A stretch of DNA of 64,000 nt from Nitrospira tepida (GTDB taxonomy: Bacteria; Nitrospirota; Nitrospiria; Nitrospirales; Nitrospiraceae), in the NCBI RefSeq assembly GCF_947241125.1, contig NZ_OX365700.1, positions 2,388,001 to 2,452,000 on the forward strand, given 5' to 3'. Both the position numbers and the translations under genes were made by a program. The notes beneath the pieces were generated by a model. It ran no database searches and was not told where the DNA came from. It was given only the letters and a program-made list of their open reading frames with translations. This document shows, in pieces, positions 4,801 to 52,655 of this stretch. Numbering within the stretch: the stretch's first letter is position 1; the number at the start of each line of letters is the position of its first letter.

Positions 4801-6452
4801 TCCTATTGGCGGCACGGCGCGCCTGGGACCGGGCCCTGGAGCTCGGCACGGCCTACGGCTTCCGCAATGCCCAGGTGACGGTCATTGCACCGACCGGGAC
4901 GATCGGGCTGGTCATGGATTGCGATACGACCGGGATCGAGCCGGACTTCGCCCTGGTCAAGTTCAAGAAGCTGGCGGGCGGCGGCTACTTCAAGATTATC
5001 AACCAGAGCCTGCCCCCGGCGCTCGCGGCTCTGGGCTATAGCGACGCGCAGATCCAGGACATCGTGTCCTACTGTGTCGGCCGGCAAACTCTCAAGGGCG
5101 CGCCGAGCGTCAACCACGAGAGCCTGCGGCAGAAGGGGTTCGATGATGCGGCGCTGGAACGGTTGGAAGGCTCCTTGGCCCAGGCCTTTGAAATCCAGTT
5201 CGCGTTCAACAAGTTCACGTTGGGCGAGGACTTCTGCCGAGAAAAGCTGGGCCTCACCGAGGCGCAGTTGGCCGATCCGACCTTCAATATGTTGAAGGCC
5301 TTGGGCTTTACCCAGGAGGATGTGGTCGCGGCCAACGACTATTGTTGCGGCACCATGACGATCGAAGGGGCTCCGCACCTGAAACCGGAGCATCTGCCGA
5401 TCTTTGATTGCGCGAACCGCTGCGGGCGCCTCGGCCAACGGTACATCGCGGTCGATGCCCATATCCGCATGATGGCGGCGGCGCAGCCCTTCATCAGCGG
5501 GGCGATCAGCAAGACGATCAACATGCCGGCCGACGCGACGTTGGAGGACGTGAAGGCAGCCTATCTATTTGCCTGGAAGAGCATGGTCAAGGCCGTCGCT
5601 CTTTACCGGGACGGATCGAAGCTGAGCCAACCCTTGAACGCCTCATCGGACAGCGGCAAGGCAGTGGAGGCAACGCCCACCGTCATGACCGTCGCAGAGA
5701 AGGCGGCGGAACGCGTGCTGGTCCGATACCTGGCCAAGCGGCGTCCCTTGCCGGCGCGCCGCAACGGCTATACGCAGAAGGCCATCATCGGAGGCCACAA
5801 GCTTTACCTGCGCACCGGTGAATACGAGGACGGGACCTTGGGCGAAATCTTCCTGGACATGCACAAGGAAGGAGCCGCCTTCCGCAGCTTGATGAACAAT
5901 TTCGCGATCGCGATTTCATTGGGGCTGCAACATGGAGTGCCGCTGGAGGAATTCGTCGAGGCCTTCGTGTTTACTCGGTTCGAGCCGAACGGGCCGGTGA
6001 AGCTGAACGACCGGATCAAGATGGCCACCTCGATCATCGACTACATCTTCCGCGAGCTCGCCATCACCTATTTGGAGCGCTCCGACCTGTCCCAGGTCCA
6101 GGAGGAAGACCTGCGGATGGATTCGATGAAGAAGGACGAGCAGGACCCGGAATGTGAGGCGGAAGAAGCGGACATGTCGGCCCTGGCCAAGGCCTCAATC
6201 CTGACCGAACACCTGCCGGTGCGGAGGAACGGGCTGCATGGGAACGGACATGGCCATGGGAACGGGCACGGCAGCGTGGCCCATAAGTTGGAGCTCAAGC
6301 GGGAGACGCTGACCGTGACCTCCGTCCGTCAGGAGGCCAGGCAAAAGGGCTATGAAGGCGATCCCTGCCCGGAATGCAAGCAGTTCATGATGGTCCGCAA
6401 CGGGACCTGTCTGAAGTGCATGGGCTGCGGCGCCACGAGCGGCTGTTCGTAA
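1809..6452 (+). CDS. nrdJ: adenosylcobalamin-dependent ribonucleotide reductase (class II) with intein
   Basis: Reduces ribonucleotides to deoxyribonucleotides by B12-generated thiyl-radical chemistry. The precursor has 1547 residues, of which 183-550 are an intein; splicing leaves about 1179 residues. Visible active-site signatures are NSNNS near residue 750 and NPCSEYM at about 828-834, with the radical Cys at 830 and Glu at 832. The C-terminal tail carries a His/Gly/Asn-rich linker (GHGHGNGHG) followed by a Cys-rich zinc-ribbon end with CPEC and CLKCMGCG, which should house the reducing cysteines. I chose GTG 1809, which has AAGGAGGG at 1797-1804; GTG 1788 is an in-frame alternative that would place that site inside the gene. 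The upstream NrdR-like boxes imply repression when dATP is plentiful. Confidence 0.95.
2355..3458 (+). other. intein with LAGLIDADG homing endonuclease inside nrdJ
   Basis: A 368-residue in-frame insertion splits the reductase motif QPHA/CFIQS. It begins with Cys (codon 2355), ends in VVVHN (codon ending 3458) and is followed by Cys+1, the classical splice junctions. Block B appears as DATADHLVW (T-x-x-H) about 75 residues in. Two LAGLIDADG-type helices are seen: [12 protein letters not shown] and [12 protein letters not shown], each with its acidic residue. The C-terminal block reads LPVYDIQT...NNVVVHN. Both splicing and endonuclease residues look intact, so it is probably active. The host mRNA is continuous, so no frameshift is involved. 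Confidence 0.93.
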
Positions 6453-46463: not shown

Positions 46464-46833
46464 CTGTGCGCGCCGGTCACGGCGGCGATGGGTCTCCGGT
46501 CTTCGCCGAGTGAAGTCAACACGATTCGGACGATCCTGGTGAACCGCGGCAGGATGATCTACGCAGTCTCTCCGTCATACCACAGGGCTGGTAACCTCAG
46601 CCGCATTCGCCGGCTCTCGGCCGGACTTGAAACGGTCCAGTCCCAGAGGCCACGGCCTTTTCTTCGGGCCAGACCTTGTCGTAGACTATACGACATCTCC
46701 CCCTCTTCTCCTGATGAGGTACTCGCAGTGGTGATGCCTGTCGCGGTGTTTGCCTCTGCCCCTCCTGCCGAACCGGCCGCCGAATGGCATGCGCGCATCT
46801 TGGCCGCGGCCATGTTCCGGAGCACCTAAGATC
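46464..46833. other. intergenic stretch before the PAS regulator
   Basis: No supported gene. A 113-codon plus-strand frame (46488-46829) lacks a ribosome site and recognisable sequence. A short inverted repeat, GTCGTAGACTATACGAC (46677-46693), is the only notable structure; it could be an operator or weak terminator. Confidence 0.35.
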
Positions 46834-48426
46834 ATGCCCCACCCGTCGTCGGTGCAGTCGCCTTCCGTCTTGATCGTTGACGATGATGTCGATATCGCGT
46901 TGGTCTTGCACGACCTGCTCGCCCACGTCGGCTATCAGGTGGAGGTGGCGCACACGGGCGCCGAGGCCGTAGCCAAAGCTCGATCCAGGAATTTCGATGT
47001 GGTCGTGCTGGATATCATGCTTCCGGATATGGACGGGCTCGTCGTGCTGCCTCTGCTTCGAGGCATCGATCCCACCCTGCCGGTCATCATGGTGACCGCG
47101 GTGGCCGACGTCTCGACCAAACACGGAGCGTTGAGCGAAGGGGCTTTCGGGTACTTGGCGAAGCCCTACGACACGGAAGAATTGAAAGCCCTCGTTCGGC
47201 GGGCCGTCAGCGTCAAGCATCTCTCCGGTGAGGCCGCCGCGGCGAAACAGGCGCTCACGGCCAGCGAGGAGCGGTTTCGAGAGGTCGTGGAGACCGCGCC
47301 TGACGCCATTGTCTTGGCCGATGCGGAGGGCCGGATTCTGTCCTGGAACGCCGCGGCCGAGTCGCTCTTCGGCTATCCGGCAGCCGCCGTCATCGGCCAA
47401 CCGCTCACCATGATCATGCCGGCGCGCTATCGTGACGATCATCTGCGTGCCTTGGAGCATGTTCGGGTGACCGGCGAGCTGCGGTACAAGGGGACGGCGA
47501 TCAAGATGCGTGGGCTGCGGAAGGACGGCCGGGAATTTCCCATTGAACTCTCATTGAGCAGTTGGACGTCTCACGACCAGCGCTTTTTCTGCGGCATTCT
47601 TCGGGATGTGACCGCCCGTGAGGCGGCGGAGGCAGATCTCCGCCGCCAACAAATTGAGCAGCAGGCGCTTTTGGATTTGATCCCCGCGATGGTCTGGTAC
47701 AAGGACGCGCATAACCGGATTCTGCGGGCCAACCGCCGCGCGGCCGAATCCATCAACAAAACGGTGGCCGAGATCGAAGGCCAATCCACCTACGACCTCT
47801 ACCCGGACGAAGCGGAGAAGTATCACCAGGATGATCTGGAGGTGATCGTTTCGGGCAAACCGAAGCTCGGGATCGTTGAGTTATACCGAACGGGATCGGG
47901 GGAAAAGCGCTGGGTGCAGACCGACAAGGTCCCCTATCGCGATGCCGACGGAACGGTGCTCGGTGTCCTGGTCTTTGCCCAGGACATTACGGATCGGAAA
48001 CGGTCGGAAGCGGCCCTGCAAGCCAGCGAGGAATGCCTCAGAATTCTTGCGGAGTCTTCGCCGGGCGGGATCGCGCTGGTCAATCGGGAGGGACAGATCG
48101 TGTTCGCCAACGCCGCTCTGGCCGAGCTGTTCGGCTACGACGAGCGGGAACTGCTCGGCCAGTCCGTCGACCTGCTCGTTCCCGAGCGGGTCCGAGCCGA
48201 GCACGCCGAGCACCGGCGGGCGTTTTTCGCCCATCCCGGCGAGCGTCGGATGGGCCGCGACCGTGTGCTGATGGGATTGCGAAAAGATGGCACCGAGTTT
48301 CCCGTCGAGATCGGCTTAGCTCCCTTGGCCACGGCCGAGGGATTCCAGGTTGCCGCCTCAATCGTCCGCATCATTCCGCGGGCCGGAAACCAGAGTGGAT
48401 GTGGGGACGGCTCCATGCCGCCGTGA
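46834..48426 (+). CDS. response regulator with three PAS domains and no kinase
   Basis: A 530-residue signalling protein. The receiver domain (about 10-130) has the acidic pair in VLIVDDDVDIA, the phospho-acceptor Asp in VVVLDIMLPDMDG and the Lys in YLAKPYD. PAS domains follow at about 155-275 (FREVVETAPDAIVLADAEG), 285-405 (LLDLIPAMVWYKDAHN) and 415-525 (LRILAESSPGGIALVNREG). The usual histidine kinase or other output domain is absent: it ends soon after the third PAS domain. ATG 46834 is chosen because it starts just before the receiver domain. It may act as a pure signal receiver or partner protein. Confidence 0.85.
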   Translation: MPHPSSVQSPSVLIVDDDVDIALVLHDLLAHVGYQVEVAHTGAEAVAKARSRNFDVVVLDIMLPDMDGLVVLPLLRGIDPTLPVIMVTAVADVSTKHGALSEGAFGYLAKPYDTEELKALVRRAVSVKHLSGEAAAAKQALTASEERFREVVETAPDAIVLADAEGRILSWNAAAESLFGYPAAAVIGQPLTMIMPARYRDDHLRALEHVRVTGELRYKGTAIKMRGLRKDGREFPIELSLSSWTSHDQRFFCGILRDVTAREAAEADLRRQQIEQQALLDLIPAMVWYKDAHNRILRANRRAAESINKTVAEIEGQSTYDLYPDEAEKYHQDDLEVIVSGKPKLGIVELYRTGSGEKRWVQTDKVPYRDADGTVLGVLVFAQDITDRKRSEAALQASEECLRILAESSPGGIALVNREGQIVFANAALAELFGYDERELLGQSVDLLVPERVRAEHAEHRRAFFAHPGERRMGRDRVLMGLRKDGTEFPVEIGLAPLATAEGFQVAASIVRIIPRAGNQSGCGDGSMPP

Positions 48427-48562: not shown

Positions 48563-48871
48563 TTACTTAAGCTTGCCGATCGTTTCCTGCAAGAGCTTCT
48601 TCCAGTCGTCGCGGTTGACCGCCGGCATCGTCTTGATCTGGATATGGCCGAGCGACGCGTTAAGCACCGCCGCCTTCATGGCGGTCTTGTTGTCAGGGAA
48701 GTCCCAGATGGCGACCACGTCATACTCGCCGAGACAATAATAGGCCTGGACCAGTTTGCCGCCGAGCGCCTGCGCATTTTTCTTGACCATCTCGGCCCGC
48801 TCGACGCCCTTGTCCTTCATGGATTGGAGCCCGTGCTGCGTGAACTTCACGAGACTGACGTAGGTCGGCAT
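48563..48871 (-). CDS. GYD-domain protein
   Basis: A 102-residue GYD-family protein with an alpha-beta barrel-type fold. The signature GEYDVVAIWDFPDNKTAM is near residues 48-65, with YVSLVKFTQHGLQSMKD at the start. ATG 48871 has AAGGAGGT 5 bases upstream, so the longer frame to 48928 is rejected. Its function is unknown; members are small cytosolic proteins. It diverges from the ncRNA/topoisomerase VI region. Confidence 0.85.
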   Translation of the reverse strand: MPTYVSLVKFTQHGLQSMKDKGVERAEMVKKNAQALGGKLVQAYYCLGEYDVVAIWDFPDNKTAMKAAVLNASLGHIQIKTMPAVNRDDWKKLLQETIGKLK

Positions 48872-49018
48872 GGCGCACCTCCTTGGCGAGTGAGGAGCAA
48901 CGGCATGGTGATGTAAGTCCGGAAACATCTTAGGCCGTTTAAGAAAATGTCACAAGTGGGGAGAGAGTCGAAACGGGAGGAAGAACGGCTCAACCGCGAC
49001 CATGTACACCGGGCTCCA

Positions 49019-49071: not shown

Positions 49072-49100
49072 TTGACTCGCGCGCGCGAGGGGCATATCGT
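49072..49100 (+). promoter_or_regulatory. promoter of the structured ncRNA
   Basis: TTGACT (49072-49077), a 17-base spacer and TATCGT (49095-49100). The expected start is near 49107, immediately ahead of the closing stem of the RNA. It could also feed the topoisomerase VI genes. Confidence 0.65.
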
Positions 49101-49106
49101 ACCCGC

Positions 49107-49260
49107 GTGGGAGGAGTTAACGCCCCGAGGGAATATGGATCACCAGGGGGTCGAGCGCTGAGGACGGTGTGCAAGCCCAGCTTCGACTGGGAAGCCTAAT
49201 GTCTCACCAAGATCTCCGCCGTACCTACAAGCTCTCGGTAGGTGCGTCCTCCTCCCACCT
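49107..49260 (+). ncRNA. structured ncRNA candidate, possibly 6S RNA
   Basis: About 154 bases with matched ends: GGGAGGAG (49109-49116) pairs with CTCCTCCC (49249-49256), and inside it ACGC (49120-49123) pairs with GCGT (49244-49247). Inner hairpins are CCCAG/CTGGG (near 49176-49191) and ACCTAC/GTAGGT (near 49223-49243). A promoter ends exactly at its start. A closing stem, an unpaired 5' arm with GCCCCGAGGGAATATGG and a small hairpin on the 3' arm fit the broad 6S (ssrS) plan, and GGGAAGCCTAA recalls a 6S segment. I cannot exclude another class or a 5' leader of top6B. Confidence 0.5.
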
Positions 49261-49332
49261 TAACCGCATCGCTGCATCTGGTGTGTGACGCTGGTTGTAC
49301 CATCCTTCGTGTCCACCGTGACCAATCGGAGA

Positions 49333-49396: not shown

Positions 49397-51541
49397 ATGG
49401 CCAAGAGCAAGCCGCCCGCATCACCCTCCGCCTCCGCATCGATATCCACATCTCCGATTGCCCCAACCGCTGCCAAGAAGTCCGCGCCAGCCGCGAGCCG
49501 AACGGCCCAGGCCGTGACGGCGGTGGAGATGGGATCGCGGCAGCGCGAGATTTCCGTTTCCGAGTTCTTTACGAAGAATCGGCACCTGCTGGGATTTGAC
49601 AACCCGCGCAAGGCCTTGCTGACCTGCGTGAAGGAAGCCGTCGATAATGCGCTGGACGCCTGCGAGGAAGCGGGGATTCTTCCCGACGTGCTGGTGAAGA
49701 TCGAAGTGGCCTCGCACGGGGAACCGCCGCCGCCGGCCAGCCAAGCCACTCGGTTTCGGATCACCGTCGCTGACAATGGGCCGGGCATCGTCCGCGAGCA
49801 GATCCCAAAAATTTTCGCCAAGCTGCTCTACGGCTCGAAGTTCCACCGCCTGCGCATGAGCCGGGGCCAGCAGGGCATCGGCATCTCCGCGGCCGGCATG
49901 TACGGACAATTGACCACCGGGAAGCCGGTCAAGATCATCTCCCGCACCAGCCCTCGTTCGACCGCGCATTATTTCGAAGTGCAGATCGACACCAAGAAGA
50001 ACGAGCCGCTGATTCTGGAGAAAAAGCAGATTGACTGGGACCAGCCCCGCGGCACGCAGGTCACGTTGGAGGTCGAAGGCCGCTACCAAAAGGGACGGGC
50101 GTCGGTCGATGAATATGTGGAGCAGACGATCATCGCCAACCCACACGTGAAGCTCACATATCTGACGCCGGAAGGGGAGTCGAAAACCTATCCCCGGACG
50201 TATCACGAATTGCCGCCCTCGCCCCGCGAGATCAAGCCGCATCCCTACGGCATCGAGTTCGGGATGATGCTGAAGATGCTCCACGACACCAAAAGCCATT
50301 CGGTGGCCGGCTTTCTCGCGAGCGATTTCTGCCGGGTGTCGCCCGCGCTGGCCGAGGAGATCTGCAAGACGGCGAAGGTCTCGCCCGACGCCAAGCCCCG
50401 GTCCATTCACGGCCATGCGGCGGAAATTCTGTACAAGACGATTCAGACGACCAAGATCATGGCGCCGCCGACCAACTGCCTCTCGCCTATCGGCGAGAAG
50501 GCGATTCTGTCTGGCCTGTATAAGCAGATCAAGGGCGAGTTCTATACGGCGGTCAGCCGGCCGCCGGCCGTGTACCGGGGCAATCCCTTCATCATCGAAG
50601 CGGGCTTGGCCTATGGGCGGGGACCGGAAGAAGCAGCCAAGGCCCAGAAGGCCGTCGAGCAGCCGCGCGCGGAAGGGGAGCATCAGGACGAGGACCAGGA
50701 ACTGGCCCGGGTGATCCGGTACGCCAACCGCGTGCCATTGCTCTATCAACAGTCGGCCTGCGCCACCTTCAAGGCAGTGCTCGACACGACCTGGCGCAAC
50801 TACGGCATCCCTCAGTCCCGCGGGGCGCTCCCAGCCGGGCCGATGGTGATCTTCGTCCACATGGCCTCAGTGTGGGTCCCGTTTACCAGCGAATCCAAAG
50901 AGGCGATCGCCGATTACGACGAGATCAGGAAGGAAATCACGCTGGCCCTGCGCGAATGCGGCCGGCGGCTCGGCTTGTTCATGCGGCGCCGGGATCGGGC
51001 CGAGAGCGAATTCCGGCGGCGCAACATCTTCGAACTCTATATCGAGGAAGTCGTCGAAGCCTGTAACCGGCTCAAAGGCGGGAAGCTGCCCAAGGAGAAA
51101 CTCAAAGCTCAGCTCCAGAAGATCGCCACGTCTCGCACCGGTGGAACCAAGACCGATGAGGTCCTCGGTAAGACCGGCGCCGGACCAGAAGGGTTGCCCC
51201 ACTCGATCGTCGTGACGGCGGAAGGGGTGGAAGGGGAACTCTCCGTGGTGGACGAAGCGGCTGCGGCGACGGAACCGGCCCCATCAGGCTCCCCTGGCCC
51301 ATCTACCGAGGTCGGCCCAGATGAAGAGGAAGCTGCGACGGAAGTGTCGCAGCCAAAGACAAGCCGGAAGGGTGCAAACCCCGTCCCGGGTAGGGACAAG
51401 AAGGCCGCAAAGCTGAAGGGCAAGGCAGCGCAATTGCCTCTCTTCTCCGGCGACGGACAGACCGGCAAACGGACTAGCCTCGCAACCGGCAAATCCGGCA
51501 AGACTCGCGGAGCCAATCGGTCTCCGCGCAAAGGGAAGTAG
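49397..51541 (+). CDS. top6B: DNA topoisomerase VI subunit B
   Basis: A 714-residue GHKL ATPase subunit of a type IIB topoisomerase that relaxes and decatenates DNA. The ATPase motifs are KEAVDNALDAC (Bergerat N box, near residue 80), DNGPGIV (G1) and RGQQGIGISAAGMYGQ (G2). A helix-two-turn-helix and transducer domain follow, with the switch Lys expected near the RRRD...E region. The last 130 residues are Lys/Ser/Pro-rich and low in complexity, beyond the archaeal family core. An N-terminal Ala/Ser-rich leader of about 45 residues is also extra. It precedes top6A by 7 bases. Confidence 0.93.
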   Translation: MAKSKPPASPSASASISTSPIAPTAAKKSAPAASRTAQAVTAVEMGSRQREISVSEFFTKNRHLLGFDNPRKALLTCVKEAVDNALDACEEAGILPDVLVKIEVASHGEPPPPASQATRFRITVADNGPGIVREQIPKIFAKLLYGSKFHRLRMSRGQQGIGISAAGMYGQLTTGKPVKIISRTSPRSTAHYFEVQIDTKKNEPLILEKKQIDWDQPRGTQVTLEVEGRYQKGRASVDEYVEQTIIANPHVKLTYLTPEGESKTYPRTYHELPPSPREIKPHPYGIEFGMMLKMLHDTKSHSVAGFLASDFCRVSPALAEEICKTAKVSPDAKPRSIHGHAAEILYKTIQTTKIMAPPTNCLSPIGEKAILSGLYKQIKGEFYTAVSRPPAVYRGNPFIIEAGLAYGRGPEEAAKAQKAVEQPRAEGEHQDEDQELARVIRYANRVPLLYQQSACATFKAVLDTTWRNYGIPQSRGALPAGPMVIFVHMASVWVPFTSESKEAIADYDEIRKEITLALRECGRRLGLFMRRRDRAESEFRRRNIFELYIEEVVEACNRLKGGKLPKEKLKAQLQKIATSRTGGTKTDEVLGKTGAGPEGLPHSIVVTAEGVEGELSVVDEAAAATEPAPSGSPGPSTEVGPDEEEAATEVSQPKTSRKGANPVPGRDKKAAKLKGKAAQLPLFSGDGQTGKRTSLATGKSGKTRGANRSPRKGK

Positions 51542-51548
51542 GAATCGC

Positions 51549-52655
51549 ATGGCACCAACGAAGCAAAAGAAGAACGAAGTGGTGGAGAAGAAACTTGTCG
51601 GCCTGGCCGATGTGGTCATCGCCGCCGCGGATCGGTCCAAGGACCCGACGTTTGCGATTCCGATCCGCGCGCTTTCGAACGTCTCGTTCAACGAACGGAA
51701 GGGCTTGATCGAGATGGGCCACAAGAAACAGGCTCGCTCGTTTTTCAACGTCGGCATGGCCAAGAAGTTCATGCAGACCATGCTGGTGGCCGACGCGCTG
51801 TCCGAGCTCCAACGGGCGGACCTGACAACCTCGCTCAGAGAGATCTATTATCGGACCAAGCACACGATCAAGAACTCGCACGAGAACACGTTCGACACCC
51901 AGGATGAATCGGACCCGATCATCGAGGACCTGGAAGTGTCGCTTACGGCCCTGCGCGAAGAGCTGCACGTGCGCGCGGAGAACGGCGGCAGCGTCGTCGG
52001 ACCGCTGGTGCTGGGGGACGACGGAGACCGGGTGGATTGCGCGAAGCTCGGGAAGGGCGGCTATTCCGTGCCCTCGATCGTCGAGCCGGAGTATTTGGAG
52101 ATCCGGCGTTGCACCGCCGACTTCGTGCTGCTGGTCGAAAAGGGCACCCAATGGAACCGGCTCTCGGAGGACAAGTTTTGGCGGCGGTATAACTGCGTGC
52201 TGCTGACCGGCAACGGGCAGCCCCCGCGCGGCGTCCGCCGGTTGGCCCGGCGGCTCCACGAAGAGCACCGGCTGCCAGTCTATGTGCTCGTGGATAACGA
52301 TCCTTGGGGTTACTATATCTACTCGGTGATCAAACAGGGTTCGATCAATCTGGCCTTCGAAAGCCAGCGCATGGCGATCCCGAAGGCCAAGTTCATCGGC
52401 CTCTCCAGCGCCGATCCGGAACGGTATGAGCTGCCGCGGAATGTCGGCATCAAGCTCAACGACAAGGACACGACCAGGGCGCGCGAACTGATGAACTACC
52501 CCTGGTTCCAGAAACCGGCCTGGCAACAGGAAATCAAGCGGATGCTTACGAGCGGGCTCAAATACGAGCTGGATGCGCTGGCCAACAAGGACTTTCAATA
52601 CCTGACGAAGAAATATCTTCCCAGAAAGCTCAAGGAGAAGGATTGGCTAGATTAG
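51549..52655 (+). CDS. top6A: DNA topoisomerase VI subunit A (Spo11-like)
   Basis: A 368-residue DNA-cleaving subunit. The catalytic Tyr lies in SLREIYYRTKHT (about residues 96-107) within the winged-helix 5Y-CAP domain. The Toprim domain has the acidic metal site in VYVLVDNDPWGYYIYS (about 247-262). NLAFESQRMAIPKAKFIGL (shown in part) is typical of the family. Together with Top6B it should form the A2B2 enzyme. Such pairs are common in archaea and plants and scattered in bacteria. The start ATG 51549 follows GGAAT directly after top6B. Confidence 0.94.
   Translation: MAPTKQKKNEVVEKKLVGLADVVIAAADRSKDPTFAIPIRALSNVSFNERKGLIEMGHKKQARSFFNVGMAKKFMQTMLVADALSELQRADLTTSLREIYYRTKHTIKNSHENTFDTQDESDPIIEDLEVSLTALREELHVRAENGGSVVGPLVLGDDGDRVDCAKLGKGGYSVPSIVEPEYLEIRRCTADFVLLVEKGTQWNRLSEDKFWRRYNCVLLTGNGQPPRGVRRLARRLHEEHRLPVYVLVDNDPWGYYIYSVIKQGSINLAFESQRMAIPKAKFIGLSSADPERYELPRNVGIKLNDKDTTRARELMNYPWFQKPAWQQEIKRMLTSGLKYELDALANKDFQYLTKKYLPRKLKEKDWLD

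Follow-up and report, generated by a model that had tools for sequence, protein, structure and literature searches.

A very probable 6S RNA gene upstream of the topoisomerase VI genes of Nitrospira tepida, with relatives below the Rfam cut-off

The window analysed here is a stretch of 64 000 nucleotides corresponding to bases 2388001–2452000 of the 4.73-Mb genome of Nitrospira tepida, which consists of one contig. It carries genes for topoisomerase VI B and A (49397–52655) in a bacterium; bacterial topoisomerase VI has been described, with Nitrospira moscoviensis named (PMC11302465). A predicted RNA gene lies between top6B and a gene for a GYD-domain protein, and further upstream (46750–48426) a response-regulator receiver domain is followed by several PAS domains. 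The features of the locus, in window coordinates, are as follows.

48563–48928, minus strand: GYD-domain gene on the other flank of the RNA
49072–49077, plus strand: putative −35 element TTGACT, from the sequence
49095–49100, plus strand: putative −10 element TATCGT, spacer of 17, from the sequence
49107–49258, plus strand: predicted 6S RNA, 152 nt (RF00013, 36 bits; model R1, 180.7 bits)
49107–49116, plus strand: closing stem, 5′ strand GTGGGAGGAG, pairing with 49249–49258; supported by covariation
49121–49131, plus strand: inner closing helices, 5′ strand, and predicted product-RNA template (consensus fold)
49132–49145, plus strand: central bubble, 5′ strand AATATGGATCACCA, unpaired in the consensus fold
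49146–49217, plus strand: apical arm, core GGTGTGCAAGCCCAGCTT..ACTGGGAAGCCTAA; Rfam 6S match at 49146–49220
49218–49231, plus strand: central bubble, 3′ strand (consensus fold)
49221–49245, plus strand: alternative 3′ bubble hairpin GTACCTAC/GTAGGTGC, competing with the inner closing helix
49232–49244 (49232–49238 and 49241–49244), plus strand: inner closing helices, 3′ strand (consensus fold)
49249–49258, plus strand: closing stem, 3′ strand CTCCTCCCAC; supported by covariation
49397–51541, plus strand: top6B (Pfam PF09239, Topo-VIb_trans, 189 bits)
51549–52655: top6A, following top6B (PF21180, 204.7 bits)

The initial annotation had drawn attention to complementary transcript ends and to a TTGACT-N17-TATCGT promoter just upstream. 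Both are present: the two ends are complementary over 10 bp, and the predicted RNA start lies 6 nt after TATCGT. The limits of the RNA were placed using the closing stem and the boundary of conservation and, because the ends pair, it is taken to be the 152 nt that they delimit, themselves included; the match to model R1 (see below) is given as reaching 49265 because that model has seven flanking positions. Taken singly, the ends, the promoter and the fold are only moderately unusual. The window contains 10 perfect 10-bp inverted repeats with a loop of 110–160 nt, against 2–14 in each of 10 shuffled versions, and as comparable repeats are equally frequent in shuffled sequence the pairing of the ends is by itself no evidence. 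The strict promoter pattern was found twice in the window vs not at all in any of 10 shuffles, and of 200 shuffles three were as stable as 49107–49260, whose folding energy is −63.5 kcal/mol (z −2.37). End pairing and folding energy were each tried alone as proof and both were insufficient.

Of 99 related genomes, 44 gave a match in a DNA search. In an alignment of the window locus with 29 relatives (type A, see below; the remaining type-A loci were left out), mean column identity was 88% over the full length. TTGAC is found at the −35 position in all 30 sequences, and TATCGT in most of the relatives with a spacer of 17–18. Within the 80 bases upstream of the RNA only the promoter is conserved, and 3′ of the closing stem conservation stops within a few bases. 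Because promoter and RNA form a single conserved block in 30 sequences, the feature is beyond chance, and on the consensus match and this conservation it appears to be an independent gene with its own promoter. The 78 named stretches that share the RNA core all come from records labelled Nitrospira, Nitrospiraceae, Nitrospirae or Nitrospirota, N. moscoviensis, N. defluvii and N. lenta among them. A short tail, approximately C[C/T]TAA, is conserved after the closing stem (49259–49264) at most type-A loci and contains no T run; it is possibly a processing or termination signal.

When the locus was searched against all 4227 Rfam families, as the initial annotation had proposed, 6S RNA (RF00013) was the best family, at 36 bits (E 9.6e-6 in 551 bases), yet below its gathering cut-off of 46.4 bits. 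At the gathering threshold Rfam gave no match in the window, nor in 10 type-B loci. The RF00013 match covers the apical arm only (49146–49220, model positions 59–134 of 187). This locus was also the top match when the whole genome was searched with RF00013 (E 2.0e-5). Among the 99 relatives, a match with E ≤0.001 was found in 46 and the cut-off was reached in two. Two other families, LPR10 (23.7 bits, cut-off 69) and H19_3 (15.2 bits, cut-off 46), were dropped as far under their cut-offs. The RF00013 cut-off is a curation threshold and not a biological feature, and the case for homology rests on reciprocal tests.

For these, a covariance model (R1) was built from the 30 type-A sequences with no 6S entry included, and a second (R2) from types A and B jointly. 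Applied to 12 kb of Escherichia coli K-12 around ssrS (L134; ssrS annotated at 5984–6166), R1 matched 5999–6156 over the full model length with 29.9 bits (E 2.1e-6), the second-best match scoring 9.6 bits. R2 matched ssrS with 46.0 bits (E 2.6e-9) and its runner-up scored 10.1 bits. The E-values of both models are rough, owing to a short calibration, and the argument rests on the gaps in bit score. The rod comes close to being its own complement, and for this reason R1 also gave weak antisense matches (25.6–30.7 bits) at four type-A loci. They equal the E. coli match in strength, and the E. coli score alone therefore leaves the strand unsettled. Across 245 genomes of the phylum, RF00013 scored above its cut-off in 149 and R1 found a match in 107. 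Outside the family to which the window belongs, 43 of 48 R1 matches fell on RF00013 matches above the cut-off; the other five did not coincide with RF00013 among the matches listed, and some of these could lie on weak, unlisted ones. The locus is thus homologous to established 6S RNAs in sequence and structure, as R1, R2 and the shared RF00013 loci indicate.

A different RNA that binds RNA polymerase or is otherwise regulatory, and that has come to resemble 6S RNA by convergence (an Ms1-like RNA, for example), would account for the sub-threshold Rfam score and for a closing stem and length (152 nt) shorter than those of E. coli 6S RNA (183 nt). We regard this as very unlikely, since the apical core matches 6S RNA at the sequence level, the reciprocal match to ssrS is full-length with both models, R1 loci in related families coincide with Rfam 6S loci, and no Rfam family scored above 6S at this locus.

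The RNAalifold consensus is a rod with a 10-bp closing stem, an 11-pair inner helix, a large central bubble of about 14 bases per strand and a long apical arm. In the window RNA it lies above the energy minimum (−49.5 vs −63.5 kcal/mol). Type A alone cannot test this structure because its variation is too small: 99.6% of cells are paired and two-sided changes occur in 5 of 42 pairs (eight cells). Only type-A sequences had gone into the R1 structure, and the type-B sequences were aligned to it afterwards. In 30 type-B sequences 91.6% of cells are paired, with two-sided changes in 29 of 42 pairs (154 cells), figures which lean toward the structure because the rows were aligned by the model; none of 500 shuffles matched them, and slid versions of the structure reached at most 53.4% and at most 15 pairs. 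In the joint alignment of types A and B (58 distinct sequences, leaving out four antisense rows and the partial match at L117), 95.6% of cells are paired and two-sided changes affect 31 of 42 pairs (274 cells). They affect all 10 pairs of the closing stem, where 97.2% of cells are paired, and all 11 pairs of the inner closing helices. The covariation that the initial annotation had asked for in its predicted stems is thus strong across the two types.

The initial annotation had left two readings side by side, a divergent 6S RNA or a regulatory leader of top6B. According to the second, the RNA would be a cis-acting part of the top6B transcript and would control how much topoisomerase VI is expressed. 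The two do share a strand, with top6B starting 138 nt after the RNA, and, in the 78 named stretches, top6B is co-oriented with the RNA in 51 (30 of these at ≤600 nt downstream) and on the opposite strand in none. However, in the other 21 of the 51 linked loci it is found outside the 600 nt downstream, many near 3 kb away, and the stretch between RNA and top6B is not conserved. A further 15 stretches lack top6B although they extend 2.5 kb or more beyond the RNA, and 12 of the 78, with no top6B and too little sequence downstream, were not counted either way. Five of the 38 genomes with type A have no top6B (G002, G018, G036, G038, G059) and three have it on a separate contig (G008, G013, G026, of which G008 and G026 are fragmented assemblies), while 13 genomes carry top6B and no type A; top6B was found in 46 of the 99 relatives overall. 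The first long reading frame after the RNA in L125 and L126, presumably argJ-like from our reading of the sequence, is on the opposite strand, and the RNA cannot lead a neighbour so placed. A leader would always lie upstream of, and co-oriented with, the gene it regulates; here RNA and promoter are kept also at loci that lack top6B or have it at a distance of kilobases, and a leader function is extremely unlikely. The RNA is often linked to top6B, loosely and always in the same orientation, and we judge top6B to be a mere neighbour with no part in the function of the RNA. Synteny thus argues against the leader, and the reciprocal model searches and covariation favour the 6S reading.

Homology, architecture, covariation, the conserved promoter and independence from top6B directly support the identification of this feature as a 6S RNA gene (ssrS-like) with its own sigma-70-type promoter, and we hold it to be very probably correct.

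The 6S RNAs of these genomes fall into two types. Type A was found in 38 of the 99 genomes (39 loci, 153.9–189 bits; two in G056) and type B in 27 (31 loci, 40.1–76.2 bits); 17 genomes have both, 21 only A and 10 only B, although filters were stricter in searches that covered more than 40 genomes, and absences in them, of type B above all, may therefore be false. Pairs of type-A sequences have a mean identity of 0.88 and pairs of type-B sequences one of 0.63, vs 0.56 for pairs across the types, and in the tree the 30 sequences of type A make up a single clade (support 0.83). A run of at least four T around the 3′ end is present at 18 of 29 type-B loci vs 4 of 30 type-A loci. Because such runs are frequent there, the type-B closing stem is often a possible intrinsic terminator; type A, mostly without one, may have its 3′ end made by processing.

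The second 6S gene of N. tepida is of type B (C1:4530418–4530565, minus strand; L114:5919–6066; R1 50.7 bits), with an RF00013 match of 34.7 bits at C1:4530460–4530529, minus strand, and seven T after its closing stem. That this copy could take over the function is the one point in favour of the type-A gene being a 6S-derived relic or non-transcribed pseudogene, a reading with next to no likelihood given that type A is better conserved than type B (the identities of 0.88 vs 0.63 above) and that all 30 of its sequences retain the promoter.

The additional type-A copy in G056 (C27:361–519; L132) scored 153.9 bits. Two type-B-like matches per genome were seen in G005, G015, G011 and G012, one of those in G015 being partial and close to a contig end. 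G005 and G015 also have type A, and possibly contain three 6S genes each. No common neighbour was recognised in the neighbourhoods of eight type-B loci.

In the other families of the order, R2 found a match in only 2 of 23 genomes (G088 and G096), and RF00013 found none in the 15 genomes of family f3, some of them one-contig. Across families f2–f4 (G060–G097) most genomes, one-contig assemblies included, are without a recognisable 6S RNA. In these sister families 6S RNA has either been lost or diverged past both models.

A literature search found no description of a 6S RNA in Nitrospira, and the survey by Wehner et al. 2014, reportedly a broad one, may include one. The Nitrospira 6S RNAs were overlooked because those of the Nitrospiraceae score just under the Rfam cut-off, and automatic annotation based on that cut-off would therefore skip their genes. 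The RNA is ordinary in kind, a 6S RNA missed by a family cut-off, and the genome has a paralogue of it at another site. This annotation gap would be closed by the present models and coordinates, which would also name two candidate RNAs per genome. Nitrospira are nitrite oxidisers and comammox bacteria that grow slowly and endure long starvation, and control of transcription by 6S RNA should matter for organisms of this kind.

6S RNA is a small global regulator of transcription that holds RNA polymerase by mimicking an open promoter; it binds the sigma-RNA polymerase holoenzyme and is abundant in stationary phase. The Nitrospira gene is predicted to be transcribed into an RNA with the ends given above, and its rod of closing stem, bubble (about 14 nt per strand) and apical arm would resemble an opened promoter. 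By homology, the RNA would be bound in the active site of RNA polymerase holoenzyme carrying the primary sigma factor, and would lower transcription from ordinary promoters as growth slows. Once nucleotides return, the polymerase would copy the 5′ strand of the bubble and the inner closing helix into a short product RNA, predicted to be 5′-AUUCCCUCGGGGCG and to begin AUUCCCUCGG. From the alignment of the model to E. coli ssrS, where we take the product-RNA start to be U44, it would start opposite or near U49134. The product RNA would open the inner closing helix, allowing the 3′ bubble hairpin to form and the polymerase to be released. Of 30 RNAs folded free, 11 have the hairpin (49221–49228/49238–49245) in their minimum-energy structure, and in the folding model a hairpin at the same site (49221–49245) forms in 30 of 30 once the 14-nt template is blocked, which is partly expected because the block removes the competing strand. 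This predicted switch fits with release by a product RNA. The promoter-mimic mechanism has been described for E. coli and Bacillus subtilis 6S RNAs (PMC11077062), and a rearrangement by bulge collapse has been proposed for those of Aquificales (PMC4227106).

We suggest, as a doubtful possibility, that Nitrospira nitrifiers have a two-6S system below the Rfam cut-off, in which a strongly conserved type A, mostly lacking a T-run terminator, and a type B that evolves faster, often bears a terminator and has a different promoter would hold RNA polymerase under different conditions (substrate starvation vs growth, for example), while most genomes of a sister family in the order would lack a 6S RNA known to either model.

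In carrying two diverged 6S genes in one genome Nitrospira resembles B. subtilis with its 6S-1 and 6S-2, as described in PMC11077062; types A and B come from a different phylum, and the likeness considered here is one of gene number. Most of the R1 matches outside the family lie on loci of RF00013 members elsewhere in the phylum; those members pass the Rfam cut-off, whereas only two of the 99 relatives do so. E. coli ssrS shares the closing stem, central bubble and apical arm, and its apical core is aligned by both R1 and R2; it differs in length (183 nt vs 152 nt in Nitrospira, where the closing stem is shorter) and in its genomic neighbours, which are zapA/fau in E. coli and top6B at the Nitrospira RNA.
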